43,826 nt of DNA from a virus: positions 1 to 43,826 of IMG/VR virus record IMGVR_UViG_3300042981_000018. The stretch is one strand, 5' to 3'. The position numbers and the translations under genes are program-made. The notes beneath the pieces were generated by a model that saw nothing but the letters and a program-made list of their open reading frames with translations, did not search any database and had not been told where the DNA came from. Positions 3,270 to 33,408 of the stretch are shown piece by piece; the stretch's first letter is position 1, and every line of letters starts with the position of its first letter.

Positions 3270-3721
3270 GCCGCCTCCCTTGCTTTCTCGCGCCACATCG
3301 GGTCAGGATCGGGCACATAGCAACCGATACGCTCCGCTGCGAACCGCTGGATGAACGCGTACATGTCAAGCGCATCAGCAACGCTGATTTCGTCGCGCTT
3401 GCCGCGTTCGTCTTTCGTCGTGGTGCGCACCGGCACGCGACCCAGCATCGGATCATCGCGCCATCCGAAATACTCACCGCACATGTTGCGGTGCAGTTCG
3501 TCTTTCTCGCGCGCGCCCTGATAGCCGCAAAATTCCATGATGGCCTTGTAGGCGACACCGAATAGCGAATTACGCTGAAGGTCGCTGCGCGCCTCGACGT
3601 GCGGTCGAATGATCACGTCGAACGACTTGTCCGCCGGCAGCCGGTCAAGGAACGCCTGCGCGTTGCCCTTCACTACGTCGCGGCTGATATGGTTTTTCCA
3701 CAAAACGAAAGTGTTTTTCAT
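3266..3721 (-). CDS. ninB: NinB/Orf-type recombination mediator
   Basis: 151 aa from the ATG at 3721, which overlaps the preceding stop as ATGA. Matches the NinB family throughout: an N-terminal strand-helix (FVLWKNHISRDVVKGNAQAF), then VIIRPHVEARSDLQRNSLFG and AIMEFCGYQGAREKDELHRN, and a C-terminal helix with ISVADALDMYAFIQRFAAER. Lambda Orf/NinB binds single-stranded DNA and SSB and can replace RecFOR in phage recombination. Here it would work with the RecT and SSB encoded on the opposite strand. Length is normal for the family. Confidence 0.9.
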   Translation of the reverse strand: MKNTFVLWKNHISRDVVKGNAQAFLDRLPADKSFDVIIRPHVEARSDLQRNSLFGVAYKAIMEFCGYQGAREKDELHRNMCGEYFGWRDDPMLGRVPVRTTTKDERGKRDEISVADALDMYAFIQRFAAERIGCYVPDPDPMWREKAREAA

Positions 3722-3909
3722 ATTTGCCACCCGCACGCGCGATACAGCATCCGCAAGATCGGTTGCGCATTCACGCGCTTTCTCATATCCATCGCCAGCT
3801 TGCGCCAGTGCGCGCGCTTACAATACTTGCGGTCGTAGGCACCCTTGCCGCGACGGTCTTCGCATACCTGGCGAGCCAAGGACTTGAGTTCGGCGTGGGG
3901 CAAGGTCAT
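3718..3909 (-). CDS. Small basic early protein, 63 aa
   Basis: 63 aa from the ATG at 3909, whose ATGA overlap with the microprotein stop upstream fixes the start; a longer reading from 3948 is less likely. Rich in Lys/Arg with CEDRRGKGAYDRKYCKRAHW and a Cys near the C-terminus, giving three Cys in all. It resembles lambda NinE-like small proteins in position and character, but I cannot assign it. It overlaps ninB by ATGA. Confidence 0.6.
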   Translation of the reverse strand: MTLPHAELKSLARQVCEDRRGKGAYDRKYCKRAHWRKLAMDMRKRVNAQPILRMLYRACGWQI

Positions 3910-3998
3910 GGCAAAGTCGCAAGGCAGATAAGCACAATCGCCGCCCATACGATTGCGAACAGAACCAGATATAGAGTCATCTTTTTGTCGTTGTTCAT
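3906..3998 (-). CDS. 30-aa predicted membrane microprotein
   Basis: 30 residues: MNNDKKMTLYLVLFAIVWAA then IVLICLATLP. A short charged N-terminus is followed by one hydrophobic helix of about 22 residues. Its stop overlaps the next ATG as ATGA. It is the second single-helix microprotein in this operon fitted between coupled genes (the other is at 2896-2991). Function unknown; a chance ORF cannot be excluded. Confidence 0.5.
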   Translation of the reverse strand: MNNDKKMTLYLVLFAIVWAAIVLICLATLP

Positions 3999-4040
3999 GC
4001 CGTCATAGCCTCGATCTTCGCGAACGGAACGGTCATGCGT

Positions 4041-4289
4041 TCACTTCTCCTTGATCGCGCGCAGCCGAGGGCCAGCAAGCTCAGGCTTCGCCACCGCGTC
4101 AGGAATCCTGTTCGTATCGTCAAACAACCTTATCGCGTCAATCTCAACCCTCACGCCAGCAAGATAAGCGCCAGCCACTTGCGACATTACCTTTGCGCGC
4201 TCAACCACCATCGCATCCGCGTCTTTATCCCCCAACGCTTCCATCATTGCGACCAGATGATTGCGTACATCCTCGACTTTATTTTTCAT
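4041..4289 (-). CDS. Hypothetical early protein, 82 aa
   Basis: 82 aa, mainly helical and charged: KVEDVRNHLVAMMEALGDK, then VVERAKVMSQVAGAYLAG. This pattern is seen in short phage proteins of the replication/nin region (possible small coiled helix bundle). The ATG overlaps the HNH gene stop (ATGA). I do not recognise a named domain. A short stretch of 42 nt follows before the 30-aa microprotein. Confidence 0.65.
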   Translation of the reverse strand: MKNKVEDVRNHLVAMMEALGDKDADAMVVERAKVMSQVAGAYLAGVRVEIDAIRLFDDTNRIPDAVAKPELAGPRLRAIKEK

Positions 4290-8980: not shown

Positions 8981-9243
8981 ACACCAACGCAGCCATGGTT
9001 CACTTTCGGCCATCGCGTCATCGCGAGCCGATTCGCGAGTGCATGGACGGGCCGGACAACGCATTTCGCGAAGTCGTGAAACCGCTGCCGAGCACGCGAC
9101 CGACTATGCGCTTCGTCGACATGAATGCGGACGAGCAGGAACTGGCGCGTGGTATGTGGGCGTCGGCTGGGCCGAATGACGGTTGCGGGTACTTTTGGTT
9201 CGGCGGGATGCTGATCAAGAATCGCGTTGGAGGTGCAGCGTGA
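8977..9243 (+). CDS. Hypothetical early protein, 88 aa
   Basis: 88 aa; contains [37 protein letters not shown]. No signal peptide or membrane helix. Overlaps the upstream gene by ATGA and the repeat protein downstream by GTGA. Family not recognised. Confidence 0.65.
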
Positions 9244-10193
9244 ACACATCCAGGGCAGCCACGAAGCGCAAGCCTAAAGCAGCAAAGGCCGGAGCGATTG
9301 TTGTTGCATACAAGGGTTTCAACGAAGACTGGACGTGTCGCGGTTACCAATACGCAGCCGGCGAGACCTATGTGCATCCCGGCGCTGTCGTGGCCTGCCC
9401 GAACTTGGCTCAGGTCGCTAGCGGCTGCGGTGGCTTCCACGCTTGCGAGTACCCGCTCGACGTGTTCGGATACTACGCTCCGGCGCGGTCGCGCTACGCA
9501 ATCGTCGAGCAATCAGGCACGCTTGCGCGACACGGCGAAGACAGCAAGATCGCCAGCAGCAAGATCACGATCAAGGGCGAGATCGGTATCCCTGGTCTCG
9601 TGAAGGCGGCCGTTGAGTACATTGTTTCTCGTTGCGACCCACCCGGCAAGGATTCGGCCGCGACGAACACGGGTAACCAGTCGGCCGCGACGAACACGGG
9701 TAACTGGTCGGCCGCGACGAACACGGGTAACCAGTCGGCCGCGACGAACACGGGTGACCGGTCGGCCGCGACGAACACGGGTGACCAGTCGGCCGCGACG
9801 AACACGGGTAACTGGTCGGCCGCGACGAACACGGGTAACTGGTCGGCCGCGACGAACACGGGTGACCGGTCGGCCGCGACGAACACGGGTAACTGGTCGG
9901 CCGCGACGAACACGGGTAACTGGTCGGCCGCGACGAACACGGGTAACCAGTCGGCCGCGACGAACACGGGTAACTGGTCGGCCGCGAGTGTCGAAGGGCA
10001 ATCTTCCATTGCAATTGCTTCGGGCAAAGGCGGCCGCAGCATGGGTGCAAAAGGATGCGCACTGTTCCTCGTCGAGCGCGACGATAACTACAAAATCGTC
10101 GCGGTGTGGGCAGGCATCGTCGGCCACGGCGGCATCAAGCCGAACGTTTGGTACACGCTCAAGGACGGCAAGCCGGTCGAGGTGGCGTCATGA
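9240..10193 (+). CDS. Repeat protein with N-terminal phage domain (DUF7666-like)
   Basis: 317 aa from a GTG overlapping the previous stop (GTGA). Residues about 20-135 form a domain found in many phage proteins ([57 protein letters not shown]); I believe this is Pfam DUF7666, function unknown. Residues 139-246 are twelve 9-residue repeats SAATNTGxx, where xx is NQ, NW, DR or DQ. The C-terminus ([37 protein letters not shown]) resembles a beta-solenoid cap. The repeat could form a beta-helix presenting the variable pair on one face. The role is not known. Confidence 0.8.
9654..9977 (+). repeat. Twelve 27-bp in-frame tandem repeats
   Basis: Twelve perfect-length 27-bp units (TCGGCCGCGACGAACACG plus GGTRACYRG). 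Units differ only in the last two codons, as AACCAG, AACTGG, GACCGG or GACCAG. The order is NQ, NW, NQ, DR, DQ, NW, NW, DR, NW, NW, NQ, NW. The near identity points to recent expansion by slippage or recombination; copy number is likely to vary and to be hard to assemble. Confidence 0.95.
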
Positions 10194-11145: not shown

Positions 11146-12111
11146 ATGAGCCATGAGCTAAGGCCGTACGAGAATGCGATCCAAACAGCCAAGAAGCGGT
11201 TTCAGGATATAGCTTCCAAGGCGGTAAATTACGACAACGAATGCATTTTCGCCATGCAGGCGCTTATGCGCACAGACTTTGCGATGAAGATCGCGAACGA
11301 AAACCCGCAGTCTCTTCATCTGGCGATGATCAACGTTGCCAGTACGGGTCTCACATTGAACCCAGCAAACGCGTATGCCTACCTTGTGCCGCGCGATGGC
11401 GCAATTGTGCTGGATATTTCGTACAAGGGGCTGATCAAGATCGCGACAGATTCGGGTGCAGTCATGTGGGCGCGAGCCGACGTAGTGTACTCGGCTGACA
11501 CATTTACTTATCACGGCCCTGCGTCCATCCCCGATCACCAAGCCGATCCATTCAAGACTGATCGCGGCGAAGTTGTTGGCGCGTATTGCATCGCAAAGAC
11601 CAAGGACGGCGACATTCTAACCGAAGTCATGTCGATGACTGAGCTTGCCAAGATTCGTGATAAGTCGATGGCCTACGTAAAGACAAAGAAAGGGCCGTGG
11701 GTTGAGTGGTTCGAGCAAATGGCCAAGAAAGCCATTATCAAACGCGCAAGCAAAACGTGGCCGTACACGAACGACAAGCTCGCGCAAGTCATTGAAGTCG
11801 CCAACAATGCAGAAGGCGGCTACGAGTTTGGCAGCGAGGAGGAACGCGAAGCCAAGCACCAGCTTCAACACGAGGCTGCCGTGGGGAGGAACTGGCCATC
11901 TGTGGCCGCGCTCAAGGAACATCTTGAACCAGCTCCGGACGATCGGGATGCTTACGCAATCTCGGAAGTCTGGAACGAGATTTCCAAGGATGACCAGATT
12001 CTTTTATGGCGCGCGCCAACGAAAGGTGGCTTGGTGTTCACAACCGAACAGCGCGCATGGATGCGCGAGTTGTCGTCGCGGGTCAGCACGCAACAGGAGA
12101 AAGCCGCATGA
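11146..12111 (+). CDS. recT: RecT single-strand annealing protein
   Basis: 321 aa from the ATG at 11146, preceded by GGAGAA; an upstream in-frame TTG at 11119 is less likely. RecT family signature: [59 protein letters not shown], then [14 protein letters not shown] and [20 protein letters not shown]. It anneals complementary single strands in phage recombination. No RecE-type exonuclease gene is adjacent, so the partner may be NinB, the SSB encoded next door (ATGA-coupled), or a host nuclease. The C-terminal 90 residues are divergent. Confidence 0.93.
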
Positions 12112-12539
12112 GTCGCGGAATTAACAAGGTCATCCTGATCGGCAACCTGGGCGCCGATCCCGAAACGCGCTACAGCGCGTCCGGCTCGGCGATCTGCTCG
12201 GTCAGCGTGGCCACGTCGGAAAGTTGGAAGGACAAGCAGACAGGCGAGAAGCAGGATCGCACCGAGTGGCATCGCGTGAAGTTTTTCGGCAAGCTCGCCG
12301 AGATCGCCGGCAAGTACCTGAAGAAGGGCCGGCAGGTGTATATCGAAGGCTCGATCCGTTCGAGCAAGTACACCGACAAGGAAGGCATTGAGCGCTGGAG
12401 CACCGACATCATCGCCAACAACATGCAGATGCTGGGCGGCCCGGGTGACGGCGAACCGCGTCAACCATCACGCGTTCCAGCCACGCCCGAACCGCAGCCG
12501 GATCAAGACGGGTTCGTGGACGACGAGATTCCGTTCTAG
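12108..12539 (+). CDS. ssb: Single-stranded DNA-binding protein
   Basis: 143 aa. OB fold with [61 protein letters not shown] proline-rich linker follows, then the acidic tip DDEIPF, the tail that recruits partners such as PriA and RecO. Likely coats phage replication forks and recombination intermediates with RecT and NinB. ATGA-coupled to recT. The stop is followed after 7 nt by the first attC-like site, so ssb forms the upstream edge of the cassette region. Confidence 0.95.
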
Positions 12540-12546
12540 ACGCGCG

Positions 12547-12604
12547 ACCCAACGATTGAGTGCAGCGGCGCCGGTACGGCGTCCGCTGGAATGCAGAGTT
12601 GGAC
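12547..12604 (+). other. attC site 1 (after ssb)
   Basis: R'' ACCCAAC, 9 nt, CAGCGG stem with CCGCTG, 9 nt, R' GTTGGAC. 58 bp. R'' fits RYYYAAC and R' fits GTTRRRY exactly. The stretch 12557-12614 is identical to 13156-13213 in attC 3. Confidence 0.85.
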
Positions 12605-12626
12605 GGCGCACCACCAATCGAACAAC

Positions 12627-12890
12627 ATGAAAGCATGGACTGACTACCCGATTATTGAGCTTGGCGATGTACCGCATGAAAGAGCACCCGTGCGCGAATG
12701 CAGCGTTTTGAGCTACGACGGCGACAAGCGCTGTCTTGTTCTTGTTGACGGCGTGACCAAGGAAATCAAGGCTGGATACTTGTATACAAAGCCTGGGCGC
12801 AGTGGCGAAGTGCCGATACTAACGTGGCGGCAACTGCGCTTGTTGGAAGCGCCCTCTAACACCCGAAATCAGCCGGACGGGCAGCGGTAG
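12627..12890 (+). CDS. Cassette 1 protein, 87 aa, phage-type hypothetical
   Basis: 87 aa: MKAWTDYPIIELGDVPHERA, CSVLSYDGDKRCLVLVDGV, EIKAGYLYTKPGRSGEVPIL. A small domain I associate with short phage and cassette proteins; function unknown. It begins 23 nt after the R' of attC 1 and its last residues, SNTRNQPDGQR, are read through the R'' of attC 2. Such NTRNQ tails are typical of cassette ORFs that end inside attC. Confidence 0.75.
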   Translation: MKAWTDYPIIELGDVPHERAPVRECSVLSYDGDKRCLVLVDGVTKEIKAGYLYTKPGRSGEVPILTWRQLRLLEAPSNTRNQPDGQR

Positions 12891-12922
12891 CTGACCGGCT
12901 CGGCTGGATTGAGCAGTTATGT
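12854..12922 (+). other. attC site 2
   Basis: R'' CTCTAAC, 9 nt, CAGCC...GGCTG and AGCCGG...CCGGCT stems, 9 nt (GATTGAGCA), R' GTTATGT. 69 bp. The core boxes deviate from consensus at the first base of R'' and the fifth base of R'. Confidence 0.7.
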
Positions 12923-12944
12923 GGCATAAGAACTGGAGAAAGCA

Positions 12945-13151
12945 ATGAACAAAGTAAAGGTGAGAATCGCTGTGGCGGTAGCCCCGGATGGGTCATGGAA
13001 CGCATGCGGTTTCAGCAACGCACGCAACGACGCGGACAAGATGGAACTTGCTGTAGAGCCGATCCCGGACGGCGAGGCCAGGTATTGGCTGGAGGCGGAG
13101 TTACCAATGCCGACTACCGAAACCGTGCAAGCAACAGTTGCTGCCGCATAA
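12945..13151 (+). CDS. Cassette 2 protein, 68 aa
   Basis: 68 aa starting MNKVKVRIAVAVAPDGSWNA; a beta-rich small protein with acidic composition (MELAVEPIPDGEARYWLEAE). GGAGAAAGCA precedes the start. The stop codon TAA lies within the R'' of attC 3. Homologues with the AVAVxxDGxWNAxG pattern occur in phages and cassettes, to my recollection; function unknown. Confidence 0.75.
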   Translation: MNKVKVRIAVAVAPDGSWNACGFSNARNDADKMELAVEPIPDGEARYWLEAELPMPTTETVQATVAAA

Positions 13152-13203
13152 CAACTGAGTGCAGCGGCGCCGGTACGGCGTCCGCTGGAATGCAGAGTTG
13201 GAC
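13146..13203 (+). other. attC site 3
   Basis: R'' GCATAAC (one mismatch), 9 nt, CAGCGG/CCGCTG stem, 9 nt, R' GTTGGAC. 58 bp. The stem, spacer and R' are identical to those of attC 1. Confidence 0.85.
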
Positions 13204-13224
13204 GGCGCACCACGAGGACGAACA

Positions 13225-13566
13225 ATGCCACTGACAACGATGTTGCACCAATGTGAGCTTGACCAGCCGACCGGAAATCCGGAACTGGATGAATTGCTTG
13301 TCGAGGCCAAGGCCGCTACGGGGCGCAACTACCAAATTGTGATGCACCCGCGATACGAGCGGAAGCGCACAGGAATTTGGTATCGGATGGTGCAAACTGG
13401 CATGCAGCCGAGATTGTACCTCGAAGTGCCAGGCTGTTTTCCATGGCAGGTGATGCGATGCGCGCAAGACGAAGCGACCGTATTTGCCTACCTCTATGGA
13501 CTCGTGAATGGCGCGAACGAACATGTGCCGCCCAACACCCGAAATCAGGCGGACAAGCCAGCGTAG
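13225..13566 (+). CDS. Cassette 3 protein, 113 aa
   Basis: 113 aa: MPLTTMLHQCELDQPTGNPE, LDELLVEAKAATGRNYQIVM, GCFPWQVMRCAQDEATVFAY. No domain recognised. The C-terminus HVPPNTRNQADKPA is translated from attC 4. Located 22 nt after the R' of attC 3, with a weak GAGGACGAACA leader. Confidence 0.7.
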   Translation: MPLTTMLHQCELDQPTGNPELDELLVEAKAATGRNYQIVMHPRYERKRTGIWYRMVQTGMQPRLYLEVPGCFPWQVMRCAQDEATVFAYLYGLVNGANEHVPPNTRNQADKPA

Positions 13567-13599
13567 CTGGATTGGCTCGCCTGGATTGAGTAGTTAGGC
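13530..13599 (+). other. attC site 4
   Basis: R'' GCCCAAC, 9 nt (ACCCGAAAT), nested stems CAGGCG/CGCCTG, AGCCA/TGGCT and CCAGC/GCTGG, 9 nt (GATTGAGTA), R' GTTAGGC. 70 bp; a textbook example of this site type. Confidence 0.88.
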
Positions 13600-13617
13600 G
13601 GCACAGCGGAGAAAGAC

Positions 13618-13872
13618 ATGAGCGACCTATTACGGATGGACCACATAAACAGCCTGCCACAGCCTTTCGTTGCGCACTTTTGCGGGGGTAGCGAATGGCC
13701 GGTGTTCGATATTGACGTTGAGACAGGACTGCTTCGCATCGATGTTTGTGGGCTGCTGGAAGTGACGAACATCGGCAACGTGATGTTCTTCCGCGACATG
13801 GATGGAGTGGAGCACGACGCGGACAGTTTTTACAACGAGGACGAGCTGCCTAACGACCGAAATCAGCGGTGA
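13618..13872 (+). CDS. Cassette 4 protein, 84 aa
   Basis: 84 aa: MSDLLRMDHINSLPQPFVAH, EWPVFDIDVETGLLRIDVCG, VMFFRDMDGVEHDADSFYNE; compact and acidic. The end LPNDRNQR is read through attC 5. GGAGAAAGAC is the ribosome-binding site, 18 nt after the R' box. Unknown function. Confidence 0.75.
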   Translation: MSDLLRMDHINSLPQPFVAHFCGGSEWPVFDIDVETGLLRIDVCGLLEVTNIGNVMFFRDMDGVEHDADSFYNEDELPNDRNQR

Positions 13873-13905
13873 GCGAAGCGAATCCGCTGAATTGACTTGT
13901 TGGAC
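13848..13905 (+). other. attC site 5
   Basis: R'' GCCTAAC, 9 nt (GACCGAAAT), CAGCGG/CCGCTG stem with a 14-nt loop region, 9 nt, R' GTTGGAC. 58 bp, exact consensus boxes. Confidence 0.88.
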
Positions 13906-13935
13906 GGCACGCCACCACCACGCAAGGAACTTACG

Positions 13936-14169
13936 ATGACAAATTGGAAACACATCAGCAGCGCCCCAAGAGATGGCCGGGCAATCATTGCGCTGTGGGC
14001 TGGAGAAGGCATGTCCGGTCATGCGGAAAGCGTGCGGTGGTTGAACGGAGTGTGGGTTTGGGAGCAGGACGGCGATACGCCACAGACTGACCCGACTCAC
14101 TGGATTCCGAAGCCGCCCGTGCCGCCCAACACCCGAATTAAGCCGACGAGCGAAGCGAGTTCGGCTTGA
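13936..14169 (+). CDS. Cassette 5 protein, 77 aa, DUF551-like
   Basis: 77 aa: MTNWKHISSAPRDGRAIIAL, ESVRWLNGVWVWEQDG, DPTHWIPKPPVPP. This is the short W-xI-SAPxDG ... THWxPxPxPP layout of DUF551-like proteins, common in phages and of unknown role. The tail PPNTRIKPTSEASSA comes from attC 6. AAGGAACTTACG precedes the start. Confidence 0.75.
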   Translation: MTNWKHISSAPRDGRAIIALWAGEGMSGHAESVRWLNGVWVWEQDGDTPQTDPTHWIPKPPVPPNTRIKPTSEASSA

Positions 14170-14183
14170 ATAAGTTGTCAGGG
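14124..14183 (+). other. attC site 6
   Basis: R'' GCCCAAC, 9 nt, AAGCCGA/TTCGGCTT stem, 9 nt (GAATAAGTT), R' GTCAGGG (diverges from GTTRRRY at two positions). 60 bp. Spacing supports the call; the R' box is weak. Confidence 0.7.
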
Positions 14184-14203
14184 CGGAACCTCACGGAGGC
14201 GAT

Positions 14204-14659
14204 ATGGACTACTTGAAATTGCTTGAACACAGCTATGCGATGGCGGCAGGAGACGAATGCCCGCCGGATAGCCGACTAGAGTTTCTTGGCGAGCAAATCT
14301 TCAACTTCACAACCTACGACGGCGCAATGAGCGCGCTGTTCGCAGAGAAGGCAATCGAGGTATGCGACGCCATCACCAGGCGCGAGACATTCGATTACAT
14401 CGGTTCCGCCGATGGCTACAAGTGGTTCCTCTTGATGTGCAACATGCCTTTCTTTGCGGATCGGCTTGAATGGGGGACTTCTATTCGCGGCGCATGGTGG
14501 AGCTCAAAGAGTCTGGCGTCTTGCGGCTTGTGGGACGGAGATAAGCAGCTTCTTGAGCTGAACTTCGCGCCGGGCGAATGGGACGAGTTTGCGAGGGCGC
14601 TTGTGGAGTTCGCGCGTAGCGATGTACGCCCTAACAACCAAGTTCAGCGGGCGCCGTAG
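14204..14659 (+). CDS. Cassette 6 protein, 151 aa
   Basis: 151 aa: MDYLKLLEHSYAMAAGDECP, EFLGEQIFNFTTYDGAMSAL, DGYKWFLLMCNMPFFADRLE, and C-terminal FARALVEFARSDVRP. Aromatic-rich and probably globular; resembles cassette proteins of unknown function. CGGAGG is the ribosome-binding site. The last residues, NNQVQRAP, run into attC 7. Confidence 0.75.
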   Translation: MDYLKLLEHSYAMAAGDECPPDSRLEFLGEQIFNFTTYDGAMSALFAEKAIEVCDAITRRETFDYIGSADGYKWFLLMCNMPFFADRLEWGTSIRGAWWSSKSLASCGLWDGDKQLLELNFAPGEWDEFARALVEFARSDVRPNNQVQRAP

Positions 14660-14686
14660 GCGATCCGCTGCAACGCGTGGTTAGGG
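14629..14686 (+). other. attC site 7
   Basis: R'' CCCTAAC and R' GTTAGGG (perfectly complementary), 9-nt spacers, GTTCAGCGG/CCGCTGcAAC stem with one unpaired C like the extrahelical bases of attC. 58 bp. Confidence 0.85.
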
Positions 14687-14699
14687 TGCAAACGGAGGA

Positions 14700-15282
14700 A
14701 TGGAAGTGCGGGTACTAGTGGCGTGCGAATACAGCGGCGTGGTGCGTGATGCCTTTACACGGGGGGGGGGCTGACGCGATGAGTTGCGACCTGCTGCCGA
14801 GCGAAACCGAAGGCCAGCACTACCAGGGTGACGTGCGCGACGTGCTGGATTACCCGTGGGATTTGATGGTGGCGCACCCGCCCTGCACTCACTTGAGCGT
14901 GAGCGGTGCGCGGCATTTTGAGGCGAAGCGCATGGATGGCAGACAACAGGCAGCCGTGAGCTTTTTCATGCTGTTGGCACGCGCGCCGATACCGCGCATT
15001 GCGATTGAAAACCCGGTGTGCGTGATGTCGAGCTTGTGGCGCAAACCTGACCAAGTAATACAGCCGTGGCAATTCGGCCACGGCGAGACTAAGGCCACAT
15101 GCTTGTGGCTGAAAGGACTGCCGAGGCTGACGCCGACGCAGATCGTTGAAGGCCGGGAAGCGCGCGTGCATCGGATGCCGCCGAGTGCGGAGCGCTGGAA
15201 AGAACGGAGCCGGACGTTCGCGGGGATCGCGGATGCGATGGCTCAGCAATGGGGCCGCAGCGACGAATTGTTTGCGGCATAA
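14700..15282 (+). pseudogene. Cassette 7: DNA cytosine methyltransferase-like gene split by a G10 run
   Basis: Reading from the ATG at 14700 gives MEVRVLVACEYSGVVRDAFT, then a run of ten Gs (14761-14770) shifts the frame and hits a TGA. The +1 frame continues to 15282: DAMSCDLLPSETEGQHYQGD, VAHPPCTHLSVSGARHFEAK, IAIENPVCVMSSLWRKPDQV, ending ELFAA. With nine Gs the whole would be one 193-aa protein. The PPC (motif IV catalytic Cys) and IENP (motif VI) fit the C5-cytosine methyltransferase fold of short phage enzymes. Strong GGAGGA leader. Either a phase-variable gene switched OFF, or a sequencing error in the homopolymer. Confidence 0.8.
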
Positions 15283-15348
15283 CACTGGAGGTAACCCGCG
15301 TGAACGAAGCGCAGCGAAGTGAACGTCGGGTTGACCGACTTGTTGGGC
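15277..15348 (+). other. attC site 8
   Basis: R'' GCATAAC, 9 nt, AACCCG/CGGGTT stem with an internal GCGCAGCGAAG loop region, 9 nt, R' GTTGGGC. 72 bp. R' exact, R'' one mismatch. Confidence 0.8.
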
Positions 15349-15368
15349 GGCACACACTGGGAACGACA

Positions 15369-15578
15369 ATGACACAAGAACAGAAAGCCAAGATTGAGGA
15401 ACTTACCAAGCGCATGAGAGCCGTCGCCGCCCCTGTAGGCCCGATGCATAGCTGGTGGGACGTGATCTTCGACATGGAAGCATTTGTAAAAGGCGAGAAG
15501 ACAATTGTCATCATGACAGCCGATAAATGGATAGAGTACGCGGAGCATCTACTTTCACTCGTGCCGCCCAACGATTAA
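15369..15578 (+). CDS. Cassette 8 protein, 69 aa
   Basis: 69 aa: MTQEQKAKIEELTKRMRAVA, MHSWWDVIFDMEAFVKGEKT, TADKWIEYAEHLLSLV. A helix-rich small protein with no recognised domain. It ends PPND inside attC 9. No obvious ribosome-binding site beyond GGGAACGACA. Confidence 0.7.
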   Translation: MTQEQKAKIEELTKRMRAVAAPVGPMHSWWDVIFDMEAFVKGEKTIVIMTADKWIEYAEHLLSLVPPND

Positions 15579-15629
15579 GTTGAGCTGCGGCGGGCTCTAT
15601 CCGCCGTTAGCTCGGACGCAGTGTTAGGC
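15566..15629 (+). other. attC site 9
   Basis: R'' GCCCAAC, 9 nt (GATTAAGTT), GAGCT/AGCTC and CGGCGG/CCGCCG stems with extra unpaired bases, 9 nt (GGACGCAGT), R' GTTAGGC. 64 bp. Confidence 0.88.
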
Positions 15630-15654
15630 GGCACCCTACCTGAAGGAGAAGGAC

Positions 15655-15963
15655 ATGCTTGGCGAATTGATCGAATGGCTCGGGCAACAGGACGGAACGA
15701 AGGTTGTTCCGTATGGGTTTGGCAAACCGAGAAGCTATCGGGGCTATTACGAAGATGTTGCGTTTGAGCCGGCGCAGAACGTGACGTTTGCATTCATGCT
15801 TGAGAATGCCAAGGCCGCGCTTGGGGCTACGTTCCAAGGTTACAAGGGTGGCGATTACACAATGCACGAATACACCGACTGCTGGATTGCAGAGTACGGC
15901 ACCAGCGAGGGCGACAAGATCGGGCCAACGATCAAGGCGCTATGGCTGGCGACTGCCGCCTAA
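15655..15963 (+). CDS. Cassette 9 protein, 102 aa, conserved phage hypothetical
   Basis: 102 aa: MLGELIEWLGQQDGTKVVPY, GFGKPRSYRGYYEDVAFEPA, GATFQGYKGGDYTMHEYTDC, WIAEYGTSEGDKIGPTIKAL. This is a well-conserved phage protein family of unknown function, to my recollection also seen in bacterial chromosomes. GAAGGAGAAGGAC is a strong ribosome-binding site. Its stop overlaps the R'' of attC 10. Confidence 0.8.
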   Translation: MLGELIEWLGQQDGTKVVPYGFGKPRSYRGYYEDVAFEPAQNVTFAFMLENAKAALGATFQGYKGGDYTMHEYTDCWIAEYGTSEGDKIGPTIKALWLATAA

Positions 15964-16049
15964 CGATTGAGTTAACTGGTGCCGGGCGTGGCACCGCATG
16001 AAACCCGAGGATGCCACGACCCGGCATCCAGTTGAACGAATTGCTAGGT
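15958..16049 (+). other. attC site 10
   Basis: R'' GCCTAAC, 9 nt (GATTGAGTT), AACTGG...CCAGTT outer stem and GCCGGG...CCCGGC inner stem, 9 nt (GAACGAATT), R' GCTAGGT (T to C at position 2). 92 bp, the longest site of the array. The AGGT of R' lies 5 nt before the next ATG and may serve as its ribosome-binding site. Confidence 0.8.
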
Positions 16050-16054
16050 GACGT

Positions 16055-16384
16055 ATGACCGATGTATTCCGCCCGCGATCGCAGCCCGCACTGACACTGT
16101 ACGAGGCATTTCAGGCTGAGGCCGCCCATAGAAAAGGGCGCGAGTGGCCGGAGTGGAACCATGCCGAGGTGAATGCGGTTTGGCGTGCGGCACGCGACTA
16201 CGCGCAGCAGCGCGGGTTGCGTGTTCCCTTACTGGAAGATGTTGCGCGAGCAGAGAGGTATGCGTCCGGCAGCATCGACTATGGGGCGACGTGGGCATAT
16301 CGGGTTGCCGAGATGATGCGGGCGGCACCTAACAAGAGTTGGGCCCCACTTTGCCGCATAACCCCGTCGGATAACTCGGGGTGA
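16055..16384 (+). CDS. Cassette 10 protein, 109 aa
   Basis: 109 aa: MTDVFRPRSQPALTLYEAFQ, EAAHRKGREWPEWNHAEVNA, VWRAARDYAQQRG, YASGSIDYGATWAYRVAEMM. Helical; not recognised. The coding region runs through a degenerate attC-like remnant at its 3' end, so the last 20 residues (NKSWAPLCRITPSDNSG) are probably attC-derived. Confidence 0.7.
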   Translation: MTDVFRPRSQPALTLYEAFQAEAAHRKGREWPEWNHAEVNAVWRAARDYAQQRGLRVPLLEDVARAERYASGSIDYGATWAYRVAEMMRAAPNKSWAPLCRITPSDNSG

Positions 16385-16396
16385 AAACGGCTAAGC
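16327..16396 (+). other. Degenerate attC-like end of the array
   Basis: ACCTAAC fits R''; GCTAAGC 57 nt later resembles the GCTAGGT R' of attC 10. Inside lies a CCCCG/CGGGG hairpin (16362-16380) but the regular 9-nt spacing is lost and GTTGGGC also occurs at 16338. It is probably a decayed or rearranged last attC. Confidence 0.4.
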
Positions 16397-16874: not shown

Positions 16875-17028
16875 CGACCGCGCCATGGCTATTTTCACGG
16901 CTCGCGTGTATCTGGCGGAGTCGAGGCGGCGCGGGAAGCAGCCGTTCGCGTTCTTGCTGCTGGAATGGGCTGCGAATGCACGGAAACGGGCAGCCGTGGC
17001 GCCGATGCAATGGAGGATGTTCGGGTGA
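16867..17028 (+). CDS. Small basic protein, 53 aa
   Basis: 53 aa: MAIFTARVYLAESRRRGKQP, FAFLLLEWAANARKRAAVAP. The pattern VYLAExRRR ... LLxWAANARRRAA recurs in short phage ORFs beside int/xis. ATG at 16867, with an alternative at 16885. Overlaps both neighbours (GTGA downstream). Confidence 0.65.
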   Translation: MIDDRAMAIFTARVYLAESRRRGKQPFAFLLLEWAANARKRAAVAPMQWRMFG

Positions 17029-17237
17029 GCGCAAACCCGCACATTCTCGACGCTGACCAGCTCCGGGCGCTGTCCGGCAAGCGGTCGGCGGCGGCGGTGC
17101 GGCGGTGGGCGAACAATCAAGGCATCCGCACGCTCGAAGGCGCGGACGGCCCTTGGACAACCGAGGAGGCCGTCAACCGCGCACTGGGTGTAGGATCGGC
17201 GAACGACCCCGTGTACACCCCGGATCAAATCGCGTGA
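17025..17237 (+). CDS. DUF4224 excisionase-like protein
   Basis: 70 aa from a GTG overlapping the previous stop. ILDADQLRALSGKRSAAAVR, RWANNQGIRTLEGADGPWTT, EEAVNRALGV matches DUF4224 proteins, small winged-helix-like factors encoded just before phage integrases and thought to act as excisionases. GTGA overlap with int fits that role. Confidence 0.8.
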   Translation: MSANPHILDADQLRALSGKRSAAAVRRWANNQGIRTLEGADGPWTTEEAVNRALGVGSANDPVYTPDQIA

Positions 17238-18370
17238 GCCGACACCGCAAAGCCGACCCGTCTATTCCGGCGTTCATTGATCAACGCAAGCTGCCGCGCG
17301 GGTGCTACTGGAATCGGCGCGACCGCTACTGGTACGCGCTGCCTGGCGGAAAGCGGATGCGCGTAGCTGGTGCAGACGCGATGCTGTCCGACCTGCACGC
17401 AGCCATGGAAACGCTATCCGGCGTGGATCGTGGGTCGCTGGACTACATGCTTGGCCGGTTCGAGACCAGCGCGCAGTTTACCGAGCTTGCGGCCGGCACG
17501 CAGGACGACTACCGGTACTGCCGCCGCGTGTTACAAGGGTTCGAGACAAAGGTCGGTGTACCATTTGCTGAACTTCGACGTTCAGGAATTACACCGCCGG
17601 TGGTGCAACGGTTGATTGATCGGATTGCCACCGATCATCCAACCAAGGCCAACCACATCAAGCGGTATCTGTCAGCGGCGTACGGATGGGCACGGTTACG
17701 CATGGGCGTCGCTGAGAATCCCGCCAAGGGCGTCGCGCAGGCCAAGGAACGCGCAGCGAGCCGCACCCCGGACAAGGATGTCATGCGCGGCGTGGTGGCG
17801 TTCCTGCGCGCGCGCGGGCGGCGACAGCCCCATTCAAGAGGATCGGTAGCGCCGTATCTGTGGGCGGTGGCCGAAATTGCCTACCGTTGCCGGATGCGTT
17901 CAATTGAAGTGCGGGAATTGACCGACGCGGATGCGACGGCTGAGGGGGTGGTTGTGCGGCGGCGCAAAGGCAGCCTCGACAACATCACGGCATGGTGCCC
18001 GGAGTTGCGGGAAGCGTGGGACGCGCTTGCGGGGCGGCGCGATGCACTGTGGCGCGCGCACGCGGTGGTGCCGCTGGCGCCCAAGGATCGACCGCTGGTG
18101 GTCACACAATCGGGACGGCCATTGGGTCGCTACACGTTGAATACTGCATGGCGACGCGCGATGGCGCAGGCGCTCAAGGCCGGAGTGATTACGGCTGATA
18201 CGCGCTTTGGGCTGCACGGGTTGAAGCATCGCGGCGTTACCGATACGCCAGGCGGTCGCAAGGTTCGGCAAGACGCGGCGGGACACAAAACGGCGGCGAT
18301 GACTGACCGCTACAGCCACGACCTAGACGTGTATCCAGCGGCCGGCCAAAGCACGCAAAAAGCGGGTTGA
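17234..18370 (+). CDS. int: Tyrosine integrase
   Basis: 378 aa from GTG. The N-terminal arm-binding region has KLPRGCYWNRRDRYWYALPG; the SAM-like core-binding domain spans about residues 60-170 (YCRRVLQGFETKVGVPFAEL). The catalytic domain carries all conserved residues: Arg in AYRCRMRSIEVREL, Lys in RRRKGSL, H-x-x-R in GLHGLKHRGVT, His in DAAGHKTAAMT and Tyr in DRYSHDLD. It lacks the extra helix of integron IntI enzymes, so it is a phage integrase. Located next to attP with the DUF4224 gene upstream; it would integrate the phage into tRNA-Asn. Confidence 0.95.
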   Translation: MSRHRKADPSIPAFIDQRKLPRGCYWNRRDRYWYALPGGKRMRVAGADAMLSDLHAAMETLSGVDRGSLDYMLGRFETSAQFTELAAGTQDDYRYCRRVLQGFETKVGVPFAELRRSGITPPVVQRLIDRIATDHPTKANHIKRYLSAAYGWARLRMGVAENPAKGVAQAKERAASRTPDKDVMRGVVAFLRARGRRQPHSRGSVAPYLWAVAEIAYRCRMRSIEVRELTDADATAEGVVVRRRKGSLDNITAWCPELREAWDALAGRRDALWRAHAVVPLAPKDRPLVVTQSGRPLGRYTLNTAWRRAMAQALKAGVITADTRFGLHGLKHRGVTDTPGGRKVRQDAAGHKTAAMTDRYSHDLDVYPAAGQSTQKAG

Positions 18371-31914: not shown

Positions 31915-33408
31915 TCACGCGACCTCGATCGAAGCAAGGGAAAGAGCCTGGACGCTACCGCCATCGGTGTAGTACAGGGTCATGGGCGGCGACTGGCGTG
32001 CGACACGCGTGGATGCCGGCGCATCCTTGATGTCGAGGTAGTAGCCGGCCGCGTTGATCGGCTGCGAGACGTCGAAGCCGACGGCGTTGAACAACTCCTG
32101 CACCTGCGAGGCAGACAGGGTGATATCGGTACGGATCGTGCCGAAGTTGGCCGCAGCGTTGATCGGATCAGCCAACGCGGAATGGATCAGGGCATAGCCG
32201 TTCGAGTTGTACGGGATCGAGCCCACCGAGGTCAGCAGGTTCATCATGGCGTCCTGCAGATCGGCGTTGAGCTTGATCTGGCAGACGTAGGAATCAGCCC
32301 ACTTGTACTGCCCCGTGATCGAACCGGGATAGAAGAACTGCCACTGGGTCGAGCTGGTTGCGAAATCGCCGTAGTAGTTGTAGCCGTTGGCCTGGAGTGC
32401 CGATGCCTGCGCATCCGATGTAACGGTCGGCGTCAGGCCCGAGAATGAACGCTCTGCCAGCGTGGTGCGGCCATTGGTCTGCGTGAAGTTGAGCGACGCG
32501 GCCCAACCCAACACTGCGGCCGCTTCCAACGCGCCCTCGGCATCGTTGGCGGCCCAGATCGGGATGGTGCCGTCTTCATTGGCGGCGAGCACTGCGGCAA
32601 CCCAGGTATTGGTGCTGCCTTGGGTCAATGCGTTCACGTCGGTGTCGTAGCCGGCGTAGAAATAGCGCTTGCCTTGCACGGCCGTCCACGCGCTGAAGGC
32701 TTCCTTGTCCGCCAGCTCCGGCTCGAACGTAGTAGAGAACCCCGCCCAGTCGCCGGCCGCAGCGGCGAACACCGGCATCGCGGTAGCGGGCGTGGATGCG
32801 ACCGCGCCTTGCGATACCACAGCGCCCGTGGCTTGCGTCAGGTTCAAGCCCGCGGCGATCGTACCGGTGGCGTAGGTGGCCGTCGAGGTCGCGCCCGTGG
32901 TGGAGCTGGTGAACACGAACGCATTGAGTTGAGCGTTATAGGTCACCGCGAAGTCAGGCGACGTGAACGCCGCCTCGATCGTTGCTGCGGCGGCAGTAAA
33001 ACTGGTGGCGCCGGTGAGCGTGATCGATGCTGACGTATTGGGCGTGCCGTCGATTGTCACCGTCAGCGTTCCGGTCAGCGCCTGCAATTGTGTCAGCGTC
33101 ATTCCGGCCAGCGAACCAGAGCGCAGAAACGCGCTCGACGCGGTTTCGCTGTAGGCTCCGAAATACAGCTTTCCGGGCGTGGTGGTGGCTCCCACCTGGC
33201 CTTCAAAGTAAATCTGCGACATCAGGTATTCGGTCGAGGTCAATCCGAAGAATGCGCCGACATCAGCAGCCTTCGAGAACGGCATCAGGGTGCCGGACGG
33301 GAGAGACGCGTTTTGCGACAGAATCAGGCCGTTGAGGTCGAGCGCCGAGCCGGCCGCGGACAGCACGCTCGGAATGACACTTGCGATGCGACTGGCGGGG
33401 ATTGCCAT
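31915..33408 (-). CDS. Tail sheath protein (DUF3383)
   Basis: 497 aa: MAIPASRIASVIPSVLSAAG, SALDLNGLILSQNASLPSGT, AADVGAFFGLTSTEYLMSQI, then LRSGSLAGMTLTQLQALTGT. C-terminal half: GRTTLAERSFSGLTPTVTSD, FYPGSITGQYKWADSYVCQI and SQVQELFNAVGFDVSQPINA. DUF3383 proteins are the contractile sheath of this myophage group. This is the strongest evidence for a contractile tail. An intrinsic terminator precedes it. Confidence 0.88.
   Translation of the reverse strand: MAIPASRIASVIPSVLSAAGSALDLNGLILSQNASLPSGTLMPFSKAADVGAFFGLTSTEYLMSQIYFEGQVGATTTPGKLYFGAYSETASSAFLRSGSLAGMTLTQLQALTGTLTVTIDGTPNTSASITLTGATSFTAAAATIEAAFTSPDFAVTYNAQLNAFVFTSSTTGATSTATYATGTIAAGLNLTQATGAVVSQGAVASTPATAMPVFAAAAGDWAGFSTTFEPELADKEAFSAWTAVQGKRYFYAGYDTDVNALTQGSTNTWVAAVLAANEDGTIPIWAANDAEGALEAAAVLGWAASLNFTQTNGRTTLAERSFSGLTPTVTSDAQASALQANGYNYYGDFATSSTQWQFFYPGSITGQYKWADSYVCQIKLNADLQDAMMNLLTSVGSIPYNSNGYALIHSALADPINAAANFGTIRTDITLSASQVQELFNAVGFDVSQPINAAGYYLDIKDAPASTRVARQSPPMTLYYTDGGSVQALSLASIEVA

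Follow-up and report, generated by a model that had tools for sequence, protein, structure and literature searches.

An integrase-less attC array with reversed gene cassettes in a temperate phage and in other viral loci

The window analysed here is the whole 43,826-base IMG/VR virus record IMGVR_UViG_3300042981_000018, which represents a contractile-tailed temperate phage. Tail sheath, terminase and portal are encoded on its minus strand, and the plus strand carries, in this order, a RecT-like protein, ssb, an array of small genes, an excisionase and a tyrosine integrase (Table 1). The terminase is 61% identical to Bordetella phage terminases and the integrase 44% identical to Pseudomonas phage integrases. 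A DNA search with the whole region against phage records matched only recT, ssb and methyltransferase genes among the best rows listed, and an Rfam search of the window returned no matching family. Elsewhere in the window, positions 9240-10193 encode a protein with about 12 short SAATNTG(N/D)(Q/W/R) repeats that matches phrog_4433 (function unknown), and a tRNA-Arg (gcg) was predicted at 32707-32793 within the tail sheath gene (31915-33408), which is probably a false positive.

A sequence-only reading of this DNA had described ten small genes in one direction between ssb and xis/int, forming an integron-type array in the early operon of a temperate phage that lacks intI. All of this is upheld: ten plus-strand ORFs lie between ssb and orfX/xis/int, they alternate with ten attC sites, and neither intI, which a complete integron would include, nor any match to the integron integrase model TIGR02249 was found in the 43.8 kb record. 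Clusters of at least two attC sites with no integron integrase nearby are classed as CALINs, and the window array is one with ten sites. The ssb gene lies outside the array and is not a cassette.

Table 1. Array of the window and neighbouring genes, in order of position
Feature	Position	Strand	Score or match
RecT-like ssDNA annealing protein, upstream of array	11146..12111	+	phrog_148, 4e-60
ssb, final pre-array gene, no cassette	12108..12539	+	phrog_44, 6e-55
attC 1	12547..12604	-	44.0 bits
c1	12630..12890	+	ORF; no family match
attC 2	12854..12922	-	31.2 bits
c2	12945..13151	+	ORF; no family match
attC 3	13146..13203	-	42.5 bits
c3	13225..13566	+	ORF
attC 4	13530..13599	-	50.6 bits
c4	13618..13872	+	ORF
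attC 5	13848..13905	-	46.1 bits
c5	13936..14169	+	ORF; weak phrog_924 match
attC 6, degenerate R'' box	14124..14183	-	47.7 bits; BLAST to plasmid attCs
c6, function-unknown family	14204..14659	+	phrog_18399, 5e-46
attC 7	14629..14686	-	36.9 bits
c7, DNA methyltransferase, frame broken upstream by G run	14746..15282	+	phrog_757, 2e-63
attC 8	15277..15348	-	50.3 bits
c8	15369..15578	+	ORF
attC 9	15566..15629	-	40.7 bits
c9, function-unknown family	15655..15963	+	phrog_12889, 3e-16
attC 10, degenerate R'' box	15958..16049	-	50.5 bits
c10	16055..16384	+	ORF
attI-like core closing array	16327..16344	-	pattern after last cassette, recurs in other loci
Excisionase	17010..17237	+	phrog_1266, 2e-8
Phage tyrosine integrase, no integron integrase	17234..18370	+	phrog_1, 9e-28; no NCBIfam match

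The sites were scored with a covariance model built from 11 attCs of class 1 integron plasmids and one attC of phage TJE1, all in gene orientation. With filters off, every site proposed from the sequence was borne out: 10 of 10 were found on the minus strand, with scores of 31.2-50.6 bits (E values 5e-6 to 3e-11). Apart from a short match of 13.1 bits where the array ends, nothing else in the window scored above 12.3 bits. Plus-strand copies of the same sites scored at most 20 bits. A second detector, which combines position weights with pairing and was trained on the same alignment as the covariance model, returned the same ten sites with scores of 43-69 and none scoring 30 or more across 2.77 Mb of reversed sequence. 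Independently, BLAST matched attC 6 to attCs of plasmid class 1 integrons (82-85% identity, E values to 3e-8). The GTT of the R' box is kept in all ten sites, and the R'' boxes of attC 6 and attC 10 are degenerate. The ten sites are genuine attC sites, but the regular 7-9-stem-9-7 layout ascribed to them is only approximate, and the R'' and R' labels first given to their boxes had been swapped, given the minus-strand orientation of the sites. The repeat units that contain attC 1 and attC 3 (12551-12614 and 13150-13213) share 97% identity over 64 nt, a sign of recent copying or of common descent.

It is highly improbable that these repeats are RNA hairpins whose role is that of terminators or of signals for mRNA processing and whose likeness to attC is accidental or convergent. 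They do sit between genes of one operon, and attCs are considered weak terminators (PMC9892861). However, the sites match class 1 attCs at the level of sequence, both extrahelical bases and the boxes are present, no T run follows them in the sequence read, and an attC of a related phage array is identical to a bacterial one over 51 nt, as described below.

The ten attCs are all on the minus strand and the ten genes all on the plus strand, which makes every gene antisense to the attC of its cassette. Arm-by-arm alignment of the sites placed the extra base in the same arm, which is L'' on the minus strand, and the arm and model alignments both put the extrahelical bases in the L'' arm, as is characteristic of attC. 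Plus-strand coding of c6, c7 and c9 is backed by their matches to phage families (Table 1), and a hexamer coding score, used in place of a longest-ORF test that was ambiguous in GC-rich DNA, preferred the plus strand in 9 of 9 inter-site intervals. In the same covariance model the class 1 plasmid attCs and the TJE1 attC, which are also its training set, fall on the gene strand. None of the ten units is a canonical cassette, with the gene on the attC strand and attC downstream. The claim that each gene is followed by its own attC is not supported: judged by extrahelical bases and covariance score alike, every site lies on the opposite strand and precedes its gene, and a window cassette consists of attC first and then the gene. 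IntI acts on the attC bottom strand only, which sets the orientation of cassette entry (PMC11023631). Top-strand insertion of a canonical cassette was considered as the cause of the reversal and rejected, since gene and attC would turn together and their relative orientation would be unchanged.

Where the array ends on the int side, close to the end of c10, the plus strand reads CCTAAC-AAGA-GTTGGGC. On the minus strand this becomes GCCCAAC-TCTT-G/TTAGGT, at the place expected for attI, and we take this arrangement (box, four bases, GTTAGGT) to resemble the attI1 core. The view that the array has no attI needs qualification, in that an attI-like core closes it. Comparable cores follow the last cassette in six other loci (designated L020, L124, L168, L181, L205 and L220). 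The pattern, which was drawn up after several ends had been seen, occurs in 7 of the 25 inverted loci, where the expectation is 0.5, and 18 of the 25 are without it. Because the window genes read toward the attI-like core, a Pc promoter placed there would read them in antisense.

The DNA methyltransferase gene c7 has a ten-G run at 14764-14774, close to its start, that disrupts the frame and represents either a sequencing error or a true frameshift. Cassettes of other inverted arrays also encode N6/N4 DNA methylases (L132, L020 and L166), as well as Dam (L138), a Lar restriction alleviation protein (L220), a Mom-like DNA modification protein (L174) and RNase H (L161), and many further cassette genes in these arrays are small and without known function. 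Together with c7, these predicted products point to a counter-defence role for cassette genes, several of which are probably directed against host defences. Homologues of c6 were found in a Pseudomonas silesiensis megaplasmid (L008, 5948-6388) and in two genomes (L415 and L416) from the order of L331 (Lysobacter), in each case without an attC array at the detector threshold. Prophage-like loci with a RecT or c6 homologue in genomes of that order likewise had no attC array at this threshold, so c6 occurs outside cassettes too.

To place the window among other arrays, viral contigs were gathered with two DNA patterns from the 3' half of attC, which are blind to gene direction, and bacterial contigs with one of these two patterns. 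The sample is defined by exact 14-base patterns and one attC subtype, and its viral records are mostly metagenomic fragments; one detector and one hexamer coding score were applied to viral and bacterial arrays alike. About 40 viral loci with attC arrays were present among the matches listed, and these, along with a 2023 paper on phage CALINs (PMC9892861), mean that the supposed rarity of attC arrays in phages needs revision. Among the matches listed, and including the window, 32 viral loci were mostly inverted, 11 mostly canonical and one a tie, or 28 inverted versus 10 canonical when only non-redundant loci were counted; the intervals within the inverted non-redundant loci listed were inverted in 91 cases and canonical in 0. 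Bacterial arrays showed the opposite layout, with 74 of 81 loci canonical and 3 mostly inverted, and 355 same-strand versus 59 opposite-strand intervals, again among the matches listed. At the level of loci this difference has a Fisher p of 3e-15 (non-redundant loci among the matches listed).

The coding strand of further inverted cassettes outside the window is likewise backed by homology, and the annotated complete phage MW202573 has four attCs on the minus strand and its annotated genes on the plus strand, which makes it inverted. Genes for ssb, tail fibre, DHH phosphoesterase, PAPS reductase and integrase neighbour the inverted arrays, and a terminase domain was detected in some of these records, partly as a weak match only. 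Searches with short attC queries gave no close match in isolated phages save P1 with class 1 integrons and one Salmonella record. No attC site was found in the first 49 kb of phage PH101, and Shewanella phage M16-3 has weak sites only.

If the repeats mark the boundaries of gene gain and loss, as had been proposed from the window sequence, related phages should differ at them, and two pairs do. Over 6 kb, L124 and L220 share 99% identity as far as GCCTAA/C at the start of the last attC, beyond which they carry a different attC and gene; the break coincides with the predicted crossover. Their right flanks past that cassette also differ, which leaves one exact breakpoint only. L168 has four attCs and L199 one between homologous flanks, with the last cassette common to both, and here the break falls inside an attC, off the crossover point. 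In a third comparison, a PAPS reductase gene (phrog_424) at 834-1685 of L181 and a gene at 3314-4138 (minus strand) of L182 have a common 3' end up to TTCTAAC; the L182 gene follows the last attC, and in L181 the array continues past its counterpart. A phage attC in L179 is the same as a Luteimonas integron attC over 51 nt, on the same attC strand. No gene bodies common to inverted phage arrays and bacterial arrays were found among the matches listed.

These comparisons bear on whether the array could be a fossil, derived from a single past capture of a cassette block out of a host integron, now fixed and no longer recombining, its sites serving as mere spacers. The record's lack of intI, the two degenerate R'' boxes and first cassettes that resist dating would agree with such a history. 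Yet a block copied from a bacterial integron would be expected to have its genes on the attC strand, as in the 74 canonical bacterial loci listed, GTT has been retained in every R' box of the window, and the arrays of relatives differ at their sites, which makes a single capture unlikely.

No match to TIGR02249 over its curated cut-off was found in any inverted-array record, although these sampled records are mostly fragments and IntI could lie elsewhere. In contrast, IntI matches were found in all nine of the array-bearing bacterial genomes tested, with seven of the nine over the cut-off. Given that no IntI match over the cut-off was found in the inverted-array records and that array-bearing bacteria have such matches, the recombining enzyme is likely to be a host IntI acting in trans. 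The same platform might instead be run by a phage tyrosine recombinase, either the phage integrase or a Xer-like enzyme, as integrases adjoin the arrays in the window, L020, L168, L170 and L220. We regard this as improbable, because those integrases are mutually unrelated and far below the integron integrase cut-off, the attCs resemble those used by bacterial IntI, and some array phages show no such enzyme in a record search that covered IntI-like proteins only.

We consider it probable, on comparative sequence evidence, that the window holds a phage-borne cassette platform without its own integrase, with an attI-like end and reversed cassettes, that is worked in trans by host IntI. The platform would be read on the minus strand as the attI-like core followed by cassettes toward ssb. 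Host IntI would act on folded single-stranded attC to insert cassettes at the core and to excise or swap them, so that new cassettes would enter at the promoter-distal end, beside xis/int. With genes antisense to attC, the cassette genes would have the same sense as the phage early operon (ssb toward int) and could be expressed from it even if they lack promoters, and selection may favour small counter-defence genes such as DNA methyltransferases. A possible reason for the reversal is that genes stay in the operon sense while cassettes enter at the far end.

Strand choice could be an added cause of the inversion, with the same anatomy: if the reactive attC strand lay on the lagging-strand template, cassettes would turn over more. 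In bacteria, excision is higher when the lagging-strand template carries the reactive attC strand (PMC11023631, PMC8946536), and the inverted layout would give this placement should the early operon run in the direction of fork movement; we view this contribution as rather doubtful.

The occurrence of the reversed layout across viral loci suggests a pool of exchangeable genes that belongs to phages themselves. A broader version, in which many phage lineages share one such pool, with genes reversed relative to attC, entry at a phage attI-like core and host IntI as the enzyme, is offered tentatively, with slightly less confidence than doubt. If true, the reversal would silence phage cassettes in a bacterial integron and bacterial cassettes in a phage operon, and so keep the two pools apart. 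Bacterial integrons are stores of anti-phage defence genes. If phages run mirror-image integrons that carry genes for products such as DNA methyltransferases and restriction-alleviation proteins, and borrow the host integrase to do so, one enzyme would serve gene exchange on both sides of the arms race. The reversed orientation would also provide a simple sequence mark that separates phage from bacterial cassettes, and a direct test of why bacterial cassettes point as they do.

Integrase-less phage arrays and their recombination by IntI1 are already known: Qi et al. (2023) described CALINs in phage genomes as attC clusters without intI, and phage attCs recombine with attI1 via IntI1 (PMC9892861). 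Like those CALINs, the window has an integrase-less attC cluster with DNA methyltransferase genes among its cassettes; it differs from them in its ten sites and attI-like end. Reversal of the gene relative to attC is not described in that paper, and of the phages concerned, TJE1 is canonical, whereas MW202573, also named there, is inverted by the present model. Class 1 mobile integrons share with the window the attC sequence, both extrahelical bases and the R'' and R' boxes, but the window has no intI1, its genes are antisense to attC and it carries no resistance genes. The sedentary chromosomal integrons of Xanthomonadales resemble a related phage array through the Luteimonas attC identity noted above, and unlike the inverted phage arrays they have IntI and genes on the attC strand. 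No earlier report of inverted phage cassettes was found in the open-access literature (preprints and most subscription journals lay outside this scope), nor any description there of the consistent reversal, of attI-like ends or of arrays that differ between related phages.

The canonical viral arrays form a second class of viral array. Viral contigs with this layout include L107, L126, L137, L152, L184, L189 and L204, partly from related phages. A viral record, L200 and L211 (IMGVR_UViG_2834908352_000001), carries a true integron integrase with a mostly canonical array, and in L200 one cassette is identical over 715 bases to a cassette found on resistance plasmids.
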